Source of the DNA: Smithella sp. PtaU1.Bin162
GTDB lineage: Bacteria; Desulfobacterota; Syntrophia; Syntrophales; Smithellaceae
Length of the DNA stretch: 56,409 nucleotides
Direction: 5' to 3'
Assembly (NCBI GenBank): GCA_002068015.1
Contig: MVRV01000063.1
Location: 1 to 56,409, forward strand
Positions within the stretch are counted from its first letter, which is position 1, and each line of letters begins with the position of its first letter. Under the pieces are notes generated by a model. That model saw only the letters and a list, made by a program, of their open reading frames with translations, ran no database searches and was not told where the DNA came from. A program made the position numbers and the translations under genes. This document shows, one piece after another, positions 38,596 to 45,509 of the stretch.

Positions 38596-39441
38596 TTATT
38601 GCCCGGGCTGAGTTTCCGCCGTCTCTTTCCGCTCCTCCGGTTTCCGGTTTTCCGTTTCACCCTCTGAAGGCGGCGGGCTTTCCTGTCCCAGTTCCGGTTG
38701 ATCGGTGGATACCGGGTCCGGCCCGCAGGCTATGGCTGACTGCCCGGTAACTGTTTCGCCTGCAGCGTGATTCTGTTCAATTTCGTCAAGCCACAGACTA
38801 TGGCGGTGCCGGGCATAATCGAGACGCACGGATCCGGTGAAAATACCGCGTACCATCGGCCAGTTGGGTCTCAAGACAATCGCCGCCATATGCGCCCCAA
38901 AAGCCAGAAAAAAAAGGATAAAAAATATATTGTGAATCCAGGTGGCGAAGAGGAGAACCGTGTGAGACATATCCGGCGCATAGATGTTTTTATATGTTTT
39001 CAACAACCCGGAAAGTATCAGCATAAGCATGATAAAGGCCATGCCGACATAGGCCAGCCGCTGTTCCGGCAGATATTTGTGCATCGGTGGCTCTTCCCCC
39101 CAGCCGAAAAGACTTTTGATAACGGCAAGAGACTGCGCAAAATCACCCTTCCGGGGAAGCAAACCCTTTTCCCCCCGCCAACCATGATAAAACAGATGGA
39201 ATATTCCCGCCGCCGTGAAAACAATTGCCGCTGAATAGTGCAGATACAGAGACGTAATGAAATCGGCCGACCATTCCAGGCCGGGGATAGTGATGATATA
39301 ATAGCGTTTGCCGACAGGCAGTTCAAAAATACCGGTAAGGAGCAGCACAAGACCGGAAACGGCAATTGCCCAGTGTTCGATCAATTCCAGCTTGCTGTGA
39401 CGAATAACAAGGTTTTTTTCGGTAATAATTTTCTCAGTCAT
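38596..39441 (-). CDS. Cytochrome b subunit (formate dehydrogenase gamma/FdnI-like)
   Basis: A 281-residue membrane protein with four main hydrophobic helices (residues about 25-45, 70-90, 130-150, 165-190). It carries haem-ligand-type His residues (HYSAAIVFTAAGIFHLFYHGW, WIHNIFFILFFLAFGAHMAAI). The family anchors periplasmic oxidoreductases and passes electrons to quinone. A C-terminal tail of about 65 residues is Pro/Glu-rich and unusual. It overlaps the preceding Fe-S protein by 8 bases. No catalytic subunit is adjacent, so the pair is an orphan module. Confidence 0.82.
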   Translation of the reverse strand: MTEKIITEKNLVIRHSKLELIEHWAIAVSGLVLLLTGIFELPVGKRYYIITIPGLEWSADFITSLYLHYSAAIVFTAAGIFHLFYHGWRGEKGLLPRKGDFAQSLAVIKSLFGWGEEPPMHKYLPEQRLAYVGMAFIMLMLILSGLLKTYKNIYAPDMSHTVLLFATWIHNIFFILFFLAFGAHMAAIVLRPNWPMVRGIFTGSVRLDYARHRHSLWLDEIEQNHAAGETVTGQSAIACGPDPVSTDQPELGQESPPPSEGETENRKPEERKETAETQPGQ

Positions 39442-40444
39442 TTCCTTCCTCCTTCTTTACCTGTTCCCTGCGCCGGAAAAACCGGTTGCAGGCATAGGCA
39501 AAACCGGCTGCAGCGAGCCCCAGAAGAGGGGCAGCCAGAACTGCTTTACCCAGAGGATCCGTGCCGGCCATCCGGCGAACGACATCCGGCTGCATAGCCG
39601 GTTGCCCCGGTTTTTTCTCCATCGTTTTATTGAGAAGTTCGAAAGGCACCGGTGAAATGTAAAGAGTGGAAGTTCCGCCGTTTTCTTTTTTCCCATAGAT
39701 ACAACCGTTTTGCGCACGGGCGCGTTCCCCGGCGATTTTTTCCATATCACTGCGCCGTCCGATCAGCAGCGCCTCGCGGGGGCAGGCTTCCACGCATCCC
39801 GGCAAATTTCCTTCTTTCAGCCGCTCGTTGCAAAGATCGCATTTATACATAACGCCGTTACCCATAAAACCGGGCAGCACCTTAAGGTAGATACCCACAC
39901 CGGATTGACGCTGGGGGATTTCCCAGGGGCAGACATCTTTGCATTTCGCTCCGCCGAAGCAGAGATTCTGATCGATTACGACGGCACCGTTTTTCTTTTT
40001 GGAATTTGCGGAAAAAGGACAAATCGTTGCACAGGCGGGATTATCACAATGCATACAGCGGCGCGGCACAAAGATAGTTTTCGGCCCGCCTGCCATATCT
40101 ATTTCGGCCTTATGCACATAGATAAAGTTATACGGCGTCAGACGATCCGTAACATCTTTCTTTTTCGACCAATCCTCAATGGTTTTGCGCGGCCATGGTT
40201 CGGGAATGTTGGCAACGACCGGAGGAATTCTATTTTTGTTGATGGTTCGACAGGCGTCCACACAGGCGGGAATTTTTCTTCCGGTACAGCCATCGCACAA
40301 GTTAAGGTCGATAATAGTTGACAGTTGTGTTTCCGTCCCGGTTGCCGCCTCAGCAGGCAAAGACAGGCAATTTAGAGCAGCAGCTCCGGCACTGATTTTT
40401 AAAAAAGACCGTCGGCTTAAATCCGTGGATTTTTTCTCCTGCAT
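39434..40444 (-). CDS. Tat-exported four-cluster Fe-S protein (HybA/FdnH-like) with C-terminal membrane anchor
   Basis: A 336-residue electron-transfer subunit. The twin-arginine signal is DLSRRSFLKISAGAAAL. Four cysteine groups for [4Fe-4S] clusters follow: CDGCTGRKIPACVDAC, CMHCDNPACATICP, CFGGAKCKDVCPW, and CDLCNERLKEGNLPGCVEACP. A hydrophobic segment near residues 305-322 (AAPLLGLAAAGFAYACNRFF) anchors it to the membrane. This resembles the beta subunits of formate dehydrogenase N and hydrogenase 2. It overlaps the cytochrome b gene. No molybdenum or nickel catalytic subunit is beside it. Confidence 0.85.
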   Translation of the reverse strand: MQEKKSTDLSRRSFLKISAGAAALNCLSLPAEAATGTETQLSTIIDLNLCDGCTGRKIPACVDACRTINKNRIPPVVANIPEPWPRKTIEDWSKKKDVTDRLTPYNFIYVHKAEIDMAGGPKTIFVPRRCMHCDNPACATICPFSANSKKKNGAVVIDQNLCFGGAKCKDVCPWEIPQRQSGVGIYLKVLPGFMGNGVMYKCDLCNERLKEGNLPGCVEACPREALLIGRRSDMEKIAGERARAQNGCIYGKKENGGTSTLYISPVPFELLNKTMEKKPGQPAMQPDVVRRMAGTDPLGKAVLAAPLLGLAAAGFAYACNRFFRRREQVKKEEGND

Positions 40445-40622: not shown

Positions 40623-41255
40623 CTGGAAAAATATTCACTGCTGCAAAATATTCTCCTGGGACTAACGCTGGCGGCTCCAATCGGACCGGTCAACCTGGAG
40701 ATAATCAAACGCGGTTTGAACTCGGGATTCCGCAATGCTTTCCTCACCGGGTCCGGGGCAATGTCGGCCGATGCAACTTATCTGATTTTAATATTTTTTG
40801 GTCTGACTGCGTTTTTAAATAATCCGCTGATGAAAATTGTTTTGGGTTTTGCCGGCAGTGTTATCCTGATATATCTCGGCATTGTCAGCGGAAAAGATTT
40901 TTTTCGTCCGCCTGACAATACCGTTTCGGCTCCGCGGCGGCTCTTTAAAAGCTCTTTTGCGACGGGTTATGTCCTGGCTATTGCGAGTCCCCTGACTATT
41001 GTCTGGTGGACCGGTGTTTTCGGAGCATTACTGGCCTCGCAGCCGGCAGCAACAACTTTGTCCGCCCTTTTTTCCTGCTTTTCAATCTTGCTGGGATGCT
41101 TTGCCTGGGTACTAGGCCTGGCCATTGCGCTGCATTTCGGCAGGCAATTCATCAATCAAAAAATTACTGGACTTATTTCCTTAATTGCCGGAATATTTCT
41201 TATCGGTTTCGGTCTGTATTTTATGTATCGTACAACAACACTGCTGATCCATTAA
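40623..41255 (+). CDS. LysE/RhtB-family amino acid exporter-like protein
   Basis: A membrane protein of about 211 residues with five or six hydrophobic helices. The true N-terminus reads LLGLTLAAPIGPVNLEIIKRGLNSGF, the LysE signature, and this region begins before any ATG, GTG or TTG. An in-frame stop (TGA) lies just upstream, so the start is probably CTG at 40623, nine bases after the Shine-Dalgarno TGAGGG. The later TTG at 40716 would drop the conserved motif. Substrate is unknown for the family here. Confidence 0.78.
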   Translation: MEKYSLLQNILLGLTLAAPIGPVNLEIIKRGLNSGFRNAFLTGSGAMSADATYLILIFFGLTAFLNNPLMKIVLGFAGSVILIYLGIVSGKDFFRPPDNTVSAPRRLFKSSFATGYVLAIASPLTIVWWTGVFGALLASQPAATTLSALFSCFSILLGCFAWVLGLAIALHFGRQFINQKITGLISLIAGIFLIGFGLYFMYRTTTLLIH

Positions 41256-41288
41256 CAACTTTCTAACGAACGGTCACTGCAATTATTG

Positions 41289-44200
41289 ATGAGAACGAAT
41301 ATCATGCCAAAAAGAATATTGAAAATATTAGAGCTGGAAATTTTTATAGGAATGCTGATTGTCTGTACGGCTAATTTTGGTTTCGCCCAGAAAACAGCAC
41401 CTGCCGGAACTCCGCCGGCACCGGAGATATTTGTCCAACTGGGACATTCCAGCACCATAAAATCTGTTTTGTTTACTTCCGACAATAAATATCTTGTTTC
41501 CGGCGGAGAAGACAAAACCATTAAAATATGGGAAGCGGCTACCGGCAGGGAAATAAGGACGCTGCGTCAGAGCGATAAAATGACTGCTTTTGCCGTTTCT
41601 CCGGATAATCAAAAAATCCTTGCCGGCGATGAAAAAGGCAATCTTAACCTCTGGGACATGATTACGGGAAAAGCATTGGGAAAATTCACCGGCAAAGCAC
41701 CGGGAGCCGTGGCCACAATAGCCATTTCTCCTGATGGCCGCCATGCCGTCTCCACCCATTACCGGGATCTCGTCTATTGGGACATGGCCAAGAAGAAGCA
41801 GATATTTGTTCTGGACAGAAATGAGCAAATAATTACCAAAGGTTATGCTCCCGAGGCCAAGGCGGCCGCTTTCTTCCCGGACGGCAATAAAATCGCCATA
41901 GGCGTGGAAATTGTGGACAGAAACTACAAAACCCGGGCCTTTAATATTGAAATTTATGACGTCCGCAAAAGAAAAACGGTAAAAAATTATGAAATTATCA
42001 AAGGTCAGGTGCATATCACTTCTTTTGCCTTCTCACCGGATGAAAAGTATTTTTTTGCGGCACTCGCTGCTGTCAAGCCCGGCAGCACCATAGACAGCAC
42101 GGGGAAATTATTGGTTGTTGATTCCGGTAACGGAAAGATTGTTAAGGAAGTTTCTTTTCCGGAACCTTTTTATAACGTCGCTTTTTCGCCGCGCGGTGAT
42201 TACGCGGCAGCGGCCAATTACGGAGAAGTTATCGTTTATGAGACGGGAAACTGGAACGAAGTGAAGAAAATCGGCGGGGCGCGCCTGCCGGTTTCCTTTG
42301 CACCCGACGGACAGTCTCTTCTTCACGGCAACAATTCGGAAAGGGCTTACTACGGGGAGAGTGTTTACAAAGAGGGCCTCGATTTAGTTGATTTGAAAAG
42401 CTGGCAGAGAGTTCAACGTTATTCCGGCAATGTCGATTTTGTAACGTCCGGCAGATTTCTTCCTCAGGAAAATGAAATTATCTCTCCGCACCAGCTGATG
42501 CTTTACTGGGATAAAAAAAGGGGGATGCTGAACAAAGCCGTTACTTTGCAAGATGCCGCCAATAGGAAAGTCACCGCGGTATGGGGCAATGCATTCAGTC
42601 CAGACGGAAATCATGCTCTCGTGCGCAATGATTTCGGAAGTTACCTCTATGATTTAAAAAACGGCCAACTGCGAAAAATTATGGATAAAGGCATGGCACT
42701 TGCAGATTTTGCACCGGACAGCAAAACATTTCTTTTTGCCACGCATGACCGGAAAATAATTTTGTGGGATGCGGAAAACAACAGAAGTCTGCGTCAGCTA
42801 GCCGACTGGACATCGCAAGAGAAACTCTTCATTCATTTTGTTAAATTGTCCGGCGACGGTAAATATGCCATAGCTGCCTTCGAAGATTATGATCTGCAGG
42901 AAGAAAAAAAAGGAATTATCTTCTGGGATGTACAAACCGGCCGGGAGGCAGGAAAAAGTAATTTGAAAAGTTCTATTTTTTCTCTTGTCCCGTCTCCGGA
43001 CGGTAAATATCTTTTCTCGGGTGAATATAGCGGCAAGGACGAAAACCACGAAATCGTAAAGAGAGAAATAAAGGGAGGCAAAGTCGTCGGGAGATTTCAA
43101 GGTCACAAAGACATAATCAGCGCCCTTACCTTTTCCCGGGACGGGAAACTTATCCTTTCCGGAAGCTATGATCAGAATATCATTCTCTGGGAAACCGGAA
43201 GCGGTAAAAAGATAAAAACGTTTGCCGGCCATTCCGGATTAATTCAGTCCCTGGATTTTTCATTAAACTCGGGAAGTTTTATTTCAACAAGCATGGACGG
43301 CACCTTGCGCCTCTGGGATATAAACGCAGGCCGGGAAATCGCGCAATTCATAACTTTTGTTGATGGTGAATGGATTGTCATTACGCCGGAAGGCTATTTC
43401 AACGCCTCACCAAATGGTGCGAAGCATCTCAATGTCCGCCTCGGCAACAGGGTTTTTTCCATTGACAGTCTGTACGAAAAATTCTTCAATCCGATATATG
43501 TCGCCTCCGTCCTGCAAGGTAAAAAAGCGGAAGGATTGGCCGATGTCCGCAAAGGAATCCAATCACCGCCCGATATACACATTGTTTCTCCTCAGCCGGA
43601 TACTTCATTCAACACCGACACCATTACCATCAAAGTTGCAGCAAAAGACACCGGAGGAGGTCTTGACGAAATAAGGCTTTATCACAATGGTAAGGCGCTG
43701 GGCGATGACCGGCGGGGGGTAAAGATTGTCGAAACCGGAGCAAAGACGGAGAAAGACTATACGGTCACACTGGTGGACGGGCTCAATACCTTCCGGGCGG
43801 TTGGGTTCAGCAGAGATAGAACTGAATCCAATCCCTCCGAAATCTCAATCCGGCTTTCGGCACCTTCCAAGGATGTTTCGCTTTATATCTTTGCCGCAGG
43901 GATCAATAAATACAAAAATCCCGCGCTGAACCTGAACTATGCCGTGCCTGATGCCAAAGGAATTGCCGGTTTTTTCCGGCAGGAAAGCCGGCTTTTCAAG
44001 AAGGTGAAAATCAGCGAAATTTACGATGAAGAGGCGACTAAAGAAGGCATTCTGGCAAAACTTAAAGAGATGGAAGAAACCAATCCACAGGATGCCGTGC
44101 TAATATATCTTGCCGGTCACGGCGAGAATGTCAAAGACGTATGGTATTTCCTTCCCCACGAACTTACTTATCCCGAACGCGAAGAGCATGTGCAGACAAA

Positions 44201-44615
44201 AGGGATTTCTTCTATGGAAATTGCCGCATCGATGAAAAACATCAGGGCGCAGAAAATCCTCATGCTGGTTGATGCCTGCAAGTCCGGTGCCGTCCTTGTT
44301 GCCTTCCGTGGATTCGAGGATAGAAAAGCTCTCTCTCAGCTCTCCCGTTCCACAGGGACACATGTTGTCGCCGCATCGACCAAAGACCAGTTTGCCGCTG
44401 AAGTGAAAGACCTGGGACATGGTGTTTTTACCTATACCTTGCTGGAAGGATTAAGAGGAAAAGCCGCCGGTGGAAGCGACACCGTAACTGTGCGCAAGCT
44501 CATGGGGTATATAGAGGAACAGCTGCCGGAAATTACAAAGAAATATAAACAGGAGGCACAGTTTCCGGTAGTGAATTCACGGGGCATGGATTTCCCGCTG
44601 GTGATTGTGAGGTAA
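41289..44615 (+). CDS. Exported WD40-repeat protein with C-terminal caspase (peptidase C14) domain
   Basis: A 1,108-residue protein. An N-terminal hydrophobic segment (IFIGMLIVCTANFGFAQ) predicts export. Residues about 50-690 hold WD40 repeats forming probably two beta-propellers (for example VSGGEDKTIKIWEA, ILSGSYDQNIILWE, ISTSMDGTLRLWD). A conserved linker WIVITPEGYFNASPNGAKHLNVR follows, then an Ig-like region (about 760-860), then the caspase-like domain. The dyad is visible: His944 in YLAGHGE and Cys997 in VDACKSG. Bacterial caspases cut after Arg or Lys. Start codon is uncertain (ATG 41289 or 41304). The DUF4384 gene follows after 57 bases. Confidence 0.88.
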   Translation: MRTNIMPKRILKILELEIFIGMLIVCTANFGFAQKTAPAGTPPAPEIFVQLGHSSTIKSVLFTSDNKYLVSGGEDKTIKIWEAATGREIRTLRQSDKMTAFAVSPDNQKILAGDEKGNLNLWDMITGKALGKFTGKAPGAVATIAISPDGRHAVSTHYRDLVYWDMAKKKQIFVLDRNEQIITKGYAPEAKAAAFFPDGNKIAIGVEIVDRNYKTRAFNIEIYDVRKRKTVKNYEIIKGQVHITSFAFSPDEKYFFAALAAVKPGSTIDSTGKLLVVDSGNGKIVKEVSFPEPFYNVAFSPRGDYAAAANYGEVIVYETGNWNEVKKIGGARLPVSFAPDGQSLLHGNNSERAYYGESVYKEGLDLVDLKSWQRVQRYSGNVDFVTSGRFLPQENEIISPHQLMLYWDKKRGMLNKAVTLQDAANRKVTAVWGNAFSPDGNHALVRNDFGSYLYDLKNGQLRKIMDKGMALADFAPDSKTFLFATHDRKIILWDAENNRSLRQLADWTSQEKLFIHFVKLSGDGKYAIAAFEDYDLQEEKKGIIFWDVQTGREAGKSNLKSSIFSLVPSPDGKYLFSGEYSGKDENHEIVKREIKGGKVVGRFQGHKDIISALTFSRDGKLILSGSYDQNIILWETGSGKKIKTFAGHSGLIQSLDFSLNSGSFISTSMDGTLRLWDINAGREIAQFITFVDGEWIVITPEGYFNASPNGAKHLNVRLGNRVFSIDSLYEKFFNPIYVASVLQGKKAEGLADVRKGIQSPPDIHIVSPQPDTSFNTDTITIKVAAKDTGGGLDEIRLYHNGKALGDDRRGVKIVETGAKTEKDYTVTLVDGLNTFRAVGFSRDRTESNPSEISIRLSAPSKDVSLYIFAAGINKYKNPALNLNYAVPDAKGIAGFFRQESRLFKKVKISEIYDEEATKEGILAKLKEMEETNPQDAVLIYLAGHGENVKDVWYFLPHELTYPEREEHVQTKGISSMEIAASMKNIRAQKILMLVDACKSGAVLVAFRGFEDRKALSQLSRSTGTHVVAASTKDQFAAEVKDLGHGVFTYTLLEGLRGKAAGGSDTVTVRKLMGYIEEQLPEITKKYKQEAQFPVVNSRGMDFPLVIVR

Positions 44616-44672
44616 TTATTCTATTTTTATTTTTTTTATTCGGGACAGGAAAATTAAAAGGAAAATCCGCAA

Positions 44673-45509
44673 ATGGCAAGTAGGAATAACTTAAAGAAAC
44701 TGCTGTTGACGATTCTGGCGTGCGCTGTGATTCCTTTTTCCGCTTACGCCGCCGATAAGCCCCTCTGGGTAACAGCTACCGGTGAGGCCTATCAGGGAGA
44801 GGCGGAAACACCGAAAGAAGTAATGGAAAGAGCAAAACGCGACGCTCAGGCGAAAGCCATCGAACAGGCTACAGGCATATTTTTGAAATCGCACACCGTA
44901 GTGCACAACAGCCAGGTTGCCGACGATCTGATTTATGCCGCCGTCCGGGGTAAAATAAAAGAAACGGCTGTTTTAAATACGGGCTGGGACAAAGAGGATC
45001 GGAACTTATACCGGATCACGATAAAAGCCCTGGTGGAACCGGTTTATCCGGAAGCAGGAAAAGGCCTTTCCGCAAAGATTAATCTTTCCAGAATAAAACT
45101 TCACGAGGGGGAAGAAGTAAAAATTTATTACGAAACAAGCAGCGATTGCCACATTTATCTTTTTTCCGTTGCCGCCGACGGCTCCGTAACTCTTCTCTTC
45201 CCCAACTCCCGCGAGCAGGAAAACAAAGTCAGCGGAGGCAAAGCTTATGAGTTTCCGGCGGCGGGAAGTACCGTCCGCTTAAAAGCTATGTTTCTGCCGG
45301 ATTTTCAGGACAAGTCCGCCCGTGAAAAGATCAAACTGATTGCCACAAAAAAAAAGGAAAATCTTCTGCCGCTGGGGTTCCAGGAAGGAATGTTTCAGGC
45401 CTATGACGCCAAATCCACCGGGCTTGTGAGCGATCTTATTAAAAAGCTCAATCAGATTGAGCCTACCGAATGGACGGAAGCAACAGTCGAATACGTAATT
45501 GAGCGATAG
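44673..45509 (+). CDS. Exported DUF4384 domain protein
   Basis: A 278-residue protein with a signal peptide (LLLTILACAVIPFSAYA). The region about 30-130 is a FlgT_N-like/LPP20-like part (VMERAKRDAQAKAIEQATGIFLKSHT). The C-terminal part is DUF4384 (about 150-275), with LHEGEEVKIYYETSSDCHIYLFSVAADGSVTLLFPN. DUF4384 commonly appears with bacterial caspase domains, fused or adjacent, and is thought to bind partners outside the cytoplasm. AAGGA precedes the ATG. It sits 57 bases after the caspase gene, suggesting a shared operon. Confidence 0.85.
   Translation: MASRNNLKKLLLTILACAVIPFSAYAADKPLWVTATGEAYQGEAETPKEVMERAKRDAQAKAIEQATGIFLKSHTVVHNSQVADDLIYAAVRGKIKETAVLNTGWDKEDRNLYRITIKALVEPVYPEAGKGLSAKINLSRIKLHEGEEVKIYYETSSDCHIYLFSVAADGSVTLLFPNSREQENKVSGGKAYEFPAAGSTVRLKAMFLPDFQDKSAREKIKLIATKKKENLLPLGFQEGMFQAYDAKSTGLVSDLIKKLNQIEPTEWTEATVEYVIER

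Follow-up and report, generated by a model that had tools for sequence, protein, structure and literature searches.

Does a bacterial caspase that appears to be exported work together with the putatively exported protein encoded directly behind it? The question is raised by two plus-strand genes, 57 bp apart, in Smithella sp. PtaU1.Bin162 (contig MVRV01000063.1, whose 56,409 nucleotides are the window analysed here), which encode a WD40-caspase of 1108 residues and a DUF4384 protein of 278 residues (Table 1). A sequence-only reading of the locus had proposed a paired, exported protease and sensor, possibly an envelope surveillance or regulated proteolysis module not yet described. We think it probable, though by no means certain, that the two genes exemplify a modular system for proteolysis in the envelope, one that combines a swappable caspase sensor with a constant DUF4384 partner. 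What carries this view, at the level of sequence, is the domain layout, the catalytic dyad, the acidic pocket residues, the export signals, the recurrent linkage, the gene fusions and the exchange of caspases at one site.

The caspase domain lies at the C-terminal end of its protein, behind the two WD40 propellers that the sequence-only reading had recognized. Both propellers are seven-bladed and confident in the AlphaFold model, and their structural matches include the two-propeller proteins 2ymu and Apaf-1. They are followed by an immunoglobulin (Ig)-like Big_7 domain, overlooked in that reading, within a stretch (residues 690–858) that is modelled with low confidence because the alignment used contained no close relatives there. 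The caspase core is confident at residues about 860–1000 and 1040–1090, and its Peptidase_C14 score is 53.6 bits against a Pfam cut-off of 21.4. The dyad, described as intact from the motifs AGHG and DACKSG, is indeed so: His944 and Cys997 are invariant in 33 full-length relatives and in more distant caspases, as are the two acidic S1 residues, Asp888 and Asp995. By alignment position, the latter would equal Asp95 and Asp211 of TbMC2, which accommodate basic substrate residues (PMC6426788), as expected for cleavage at Arg or Lys. Domain score, His–Cys dyad and S1 aspartate pair are each those of an orthocaspase (C14B, p20 caspase homologue). A sequence search of the PDB with the window caspase domain alone gave no match; a profile built from related caspases matches metacaspase and MALT1 structures, and the Foldseek match list obtained with the full caspase model is filled by WD40 propellers.

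The DUF4384 protein is predicted to consist of two domains behind its signal peptide. The first, also missed earlier, appears to resemble Lpp20, Tip-alpha and FlgP-type lipoproteins. The profile similarity is weak (E 6e-5 and 5e-4 to the FlgP-type lipoprotein chains 9hmf and 9yec; for the first domain of a relative, Pfam FlgT_N at E 4e-4, under the cut-off), and the domain superimposes on Lpp20 (5ok8) in VIA-align with Z 7.5 and a root-mean-square deviation of 3.3 over 86 aligned positions. The second is an Ig/FnIII-like sandwich carrying DUF4384 (PF14326; residues 143–227, E 6e-18, 65.2 bits against a gathering cut-off of 27). Foldseek with the model of the DUF4384 protein returned no match at E <= 0.001.

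Both proteins are predicted to be exported by Sec and to be extracytoplasmic. Signal peptides were called by a simple rule-based scan (basic n-region, hydrophobic h-region, signal-peptidase I site), not by SignalP; the scan finds a candidate site in each protein, and the N-termini of relatives agree. In the relatives' loci, the same scan calls a signal-peptidase I or lipoprotein signal in 38 of 40 large caspases and 59 of 61 DUF4384 proteins, versus 118 of 389 other genes. The mature caspase has a single cysteine, the catalytic Cys997, and non-catalytic cysteines are rare in the family (0.21 per 100 residues). The envelope-type company of the relatives' caspase domains (PDZ, thioredoxin, WD40 and S41 domains; ankyrin and DUF2846 lipoproteins) further supports this location. 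Lipoprotein status was considered for both window proteins and rejected: the caspase has no lipobox, and the ILAC of the DUF4384 signal is not conserved. Thus the earlier proposal of an exported pair stands as a prediction, with DUF4384 confirmed in the neighbour; its casting of the DUF4384 protein as a sensor in envelope surveillance was interpretation.

The link between DUF4384 and putatively exported caspases appears strong at the family level, through both adjacency and fusion. When one genome per species was scanned blind to caspases, with the DUF4384 alignment as query, 72 DUF4384 loci came up in Desulfobacterota (including Geobacter relatives), Nitrospirota, Nitrospinota and Deferribacterota. 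A caspase gene ends within 150 bp upstream of 34 of the 54 DUF4384 genes that could be evaluated (those with at least 1.5 kb upstream), and within 1.5 kb of 39; the caspase stop codon and the DUF4384 start codon often overlap. With about ten caspases among some 3000 genes, the chance expectation is well under one such adjacency. Pfam assigns each of the 81 neighbouring caspases scanned to Peptidase_C14; the extra domains they carry are ankyrin (35), PDZ (9), S41 (4), TPR (3), DUF2846 (3) and WD40 (2). In a separate phylum-wide Pfam search, DUF4384 was found in 28 of 118 genomes; 20 loci were fetched, a few of them repeating contigs of the first scan, and three carry caspase–DUF4384 fusions; in another eleven, a caspase gene lies no more than about 1.1 kb away. 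The fused chains occur in both domain orders and have hydrophobic N-termini, and such fusions are also on record in cyanobacteria (PMC8283722) and alphaproteobacteria (PMC6426788).

We note two chain architectures among these loci. An exported chain of PDZ, Peptidase_S41 (Pfam 1e-50) and caspase (3e-18) domains (L131:283-2478, plus strand; same architecture in L130:6406-8643) fuses two protease domains of different classes and lies upstream of a lipoprotein-caspase and a DUF4384 gene. The other, an exported PDZ–thioredoxin (CAPC motif, Pfam 1e-20)–WD40–caspase chain (L103:9513-12515, minus strand; also in L105, L106 and L080), places a redox domain beside a cysteine protease.

Several findings weigh against the modular system proposed above. 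Adjacency on one strand is no proof of shared function, and for 15 of the 54 window-type DUF4384 genes the 5 kb upstream contain no caspase. Among nine close WD40-caspase relatives with a visible next gene, six have no DUF4384 there, and the nearest relatives stand alone (in genomes G006, 64% identical, G007, contig C45, and G059). Furthermore, the Ig-like sandwich that holds DUF4384 matches many unrelated proteins at Z 8–9, a similarity so unspecific that the sandwich carries no functional information. In the other three of the nine, a DUF4384 gene of another subtype (about 25% identical) lies 4–257 bp downstream; the caspases of L075, L080 and L086, 55–85% identical over the aligned part, have the other subtype directly downstream. 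The window-type DUF4384 normally follows caspases of 430–540 residues, many with an ankyrin-repeat lipoprotein front, and its nearest relatives, from the same genus and 76–78% identical, sit behind two other caspases. Direct conservation of the exact WD40-caspase/DUF4384 pair was therefore rejected for close relatives on this comparison of neighbours. The expected co-occurrence of the two genes, in other words, holds for the families and fails for this particular pair: judged by gene neighbourhoods, the recurring unit is DUF4384 with many caspase types.

In a sister species (G003), the last 31 codons of a LysE gene (71% identical to the LysE gene upstream of the window caspase) lie just before a caspase–caspase–DUF4384 cluster, which suggests that the two genomes share the same site, where one set of caspase genes has been swapped for another between LysE and DUF4384. 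Only these 31 LysE codons remain in the sister genome (loci L091 and L130). Elsewhere among the relatives, WD40-caspases form tandem arrays of up to three (L083, L084), and in G002 a TPR protein of 534 residues, whose N-terminal part matches the first domain of the window DUF4384 protein, is encoded between two WD40-caspase genes (L072:7175-8776, plus strand).

Alternatively, the WD40-caspase might act alone and the DUF4384 gene be a relic, left at this site by an earlier caspase cassette and no longer tied to its neighbour in function, as the solitary close WD40-caspases and the attachment of the same-genus DUF4384 orthologues to other caspases would have it. However, caspases of many types have DUF4384 fused to them or next to them, so that the pattern survives a swap of the caspase gene that precedes DUF4384; three close WD40-caspases do have a DUF4384 gene of the other subtype a short way downstream; and the window gene is intact and retains its high identity to the same-genus orthologues. 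We regard a relic as unlikely, yet it has to be taken seriously.

A tie of a different nature would exist if the DUF4384 protein were the substrate of the caspase, or a propeptide-like partner that blocks it until cut at a basic residue. The frequent 3' adjacency with overlapping codons and the constancy of the second component beside a varying sensor are in keeping with this, and the literature searched yields no account of what DUF4384 does. But DUF4384 is also fused to non-caspase catalytic domains, for example kinases (PMC6426788), and in the fusions it stands on either side of the caspase, so that an adaptor or binding domain fits better; solitary DUF4384 genes occur as well. A substrate or inhibitor seems improbable to us. 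Still further down, and very doubtful, is an anti-phage or programmed cell death module that would kill the cell on sensing infection or damage. Bacterial conflict systems do use caspases as effectors (PMC7159879), and the generic PADLOC caspase model matches the window caspase (E 4.5e-14), but that model matches 77 of 81 homologues and therefore carries no specific information, DUF4384 has no PADLOC match, the predicted location is outside the cytoplasm, and the neighbouring genes looked at, without a search by Cas models for linked effectors such as the gRAMP/Cas7-11 of the CRISPR-linked Craspase, are transport and metabolic genes with no defence gene identified among them.

In the modular envelope system that we favour, both proteins would be exported by Sec, and the caspase would be an Arg/Lys-specific orthocaspase held behind a sensor region of two WD40 propellers and the Ig domain. 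Binding of an envelope client or ligand by the propellers could then position or unleash the protease. The DUF4384 protein would be the constant accessory, probably positioned or oligomerised at the envelope through its Lpp20/FlgP-like domain. To judge by adjacency and fusion, its other domain, the Ig-like DUF4384, may dock on or regulate the caspase or its client. Since PDZ, S41 protease and thioredoxin domains share a chain with some of the sister caspases, the module most likely serves regulated proteolysis or quality control of envelope proteins.

Like other prokaryotic orthocaspases (MEROPS C14B, PMC3501461), the window caspase has the His–Cys dyad, the aspartate pair of a basic pocket and WD40 repeats, the accessory domain that prokaryotic caspase homologues carry most often (Asplund-Samuelsson et al. 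2012, PMC3501461). The same survey describes N-terminal helices, probably signal peptides, and multi-caspase operons in Deltaproteobacteria, and a secreted caspase was already noted in 2012 (PMC3355149). Hence neither caspases that are exported or have a signal peptide nor those with WD40 repeats are new in themselves (PMC3501461, PMC3355149). The survey (PMC3501461) makes no mention of DUF4384, and neither a recurrent, putatively exported DUF4384 partner nor the swapping of sensor domains in front of it appears in the literature covered. In the cyanobacterial and alphaproteobacterial fusions (PMC8283722, PMC6426788), caspase and DUF4384 form one polypeptide that works as a unit, whereas the window pair is split over two genes and the partner adds an Lpp20-like domain and a signal peptide of its own.

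A small constant envelope component beside a caspase with highly variable domains is likewise found in the EACC1-caspase system (Kaur et al. 2020, PMC7159879, System 4). There, however, EACC1, a protein with a single transmembrane helix, is encoded 5' and the caspase domain is N-terminal, whereas in the DUF4384 module the constant gene is usually 3', its product is predicted to be exported and the caspase domain is C-terminal. EACC1-caspase membership was rejected for the window: the NCBIfam model caspase_w_EACC1 scores 74.9 bits against a cut-off of 140, the 5' gene encodes a LysE transporter rather than EACC1, and the caspase is at the opposite end of the protein; no caspase of the host genome reaches the cut-off. 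Proteins of the Lpp20, FlgP, FlgT_N and Tip-alpha type, which the first domain of the DUF4384 protein appears to resemble in fold and weakly in profile, differ in that most DUF4384 relatives have no lipobox and fuse the domain to DUF4384; no flagellar genes were noted among the neighbouring genes read. Exported clan CD proteases with a caspase fold and a basic P1 preference include gingipain (C25) and clostripain (C11), from families other than that of the window caspase; to our knowledge, neither has a WD40 or DUF4384 partner.

As to novelty, the literature searched, of which coverage is partial so that novelty is not proven, held no description of an exported caspase–DUF4384 pairing, and nothing specific on S41–caspase fusions or caspases in Syntrophaceae. 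The core of the earlier reading, a protease and a partner that are both exported, is reasonable. More tentatively, and with somewhat greater doubt than confidence, we suggest a widespread undescribed class of envelope caspases in Desulfobacterota, Nitrospirota, Nitrospinota and Deferribacterota, in which a constant exported Lpp20–DUF4384 protein would serve cassette-swapped sensors and co-effectors (ankyrin lipoprotein, PDZ–S41, PDZ–thioredoxin–WD40, TPR, double WD40), as a periplasmic counterpart of the cytoplasmic caspase systems of conflict or quality control. Most discussion of bacterial caspases treats them as cytoplasmic enzymes of cell death or defence, and a recurrent exported caspase with a constant partner offers a concrete route to asking what caspases do in the bacterial envelope. 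DUF4384 thereby gains a testable role, for which the single-chain fusions and the Geobacter relatives are tractable in biochemistry.

Table 1. Coordinates of the two genes, their domains, the upstream gene and the fused homologues; positions refer to the window unless a locus is named.
Feature	Position	Strand	Basis
Exported (predicted) WD40-Ig-caspase, orthocaspase type, 1108 aa	41289..44615	+	open reading frame (ORF) 41286-44615, ATG at 41289; Pfam; alignment of 33 relatives
Caspase Sec signal peptide (predicted), aa 1-33, GFA/QK; alternative start Met6 at 41304	41289..41387	+	rule scan; relatives' N-termini match
First WD40 propeller, aa 48-373	41430..42407	+	AlphaFold; VIA-align Z 33 to 5yzv
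Second WD40 propeller, aa about 380-691	42426..43361	+	Pfam WD40; AlphaFold; two-propeller structure matches
Big_7 Ig-like domain, aa 761-827	43569..43769	+	Pfam PF17957 E 5e-9; low-confidence stretch of model
Peptidase_C14 caspase domain, aa 871-1096	43899..44576	+	Pfam E 3e-14; most residues pLDDT >90
Catalytic His944 codon	44118..44120	+	motif LAGHG; invariant in 33 relatives and distant caspases
Catalytic Cys997 codon	44277..44279	+	motif DACKSG; invariant in 33 relatives and distant caspases
Exported (predicted) DUF4384 protein, 278 aa	44673..45509	+	ORF; Pfam; start 57 bp past caspase stop
DUF4384 protein signal peptide (predicted), aa 1-26, AYA/AD	44673..44750	+	rule scan; relatives show same pattern
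Lpp20/FlgT_N/FlgP-like domain, aa 31-129	44763..45059	+	profile and fold similarity
Ig/FnIII-like sandwich with DUF4384	45060..45506 (Pfam stretch 45099-45353)	+	Pfam; VIA-align best Z 8.9
LysE-family transporter gene	40716..41255	+	Pfam LysE E 3.5e-27; stop 33 bp 5' of caspase gene
Caspase-DUF4384 fusions	L236:5260-7035, L236:9026-10396, L245:5722-7152, L246:5460-6899, L246:12206-13756		

The LysE gene may be an operon mate of the caspase gene, on the same transcript; its frame is open from about 40623, with a TTG as the first ATG, GTG or TTG codon. A terminator scan of the plus strand between the caspase and DUF4384 genes found no terminator-like site. The host genome (G000; 3.6 Mb in 191 contigs) has ten Peptidase_C14 and two DUF4384 matches; the nine Peptidase_C14 matches outside the window are on contigs C26, C31, C52, C72, C73, C85, C104, C142 and C189, several in frames of more than 800 residues. 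On the minus strand beside the caspase locus (38596-40444), a Tat-signal ferredoxin resembling HmcB/HybA is followed by a b-type cytochrome, forming an electron-transfer pair.

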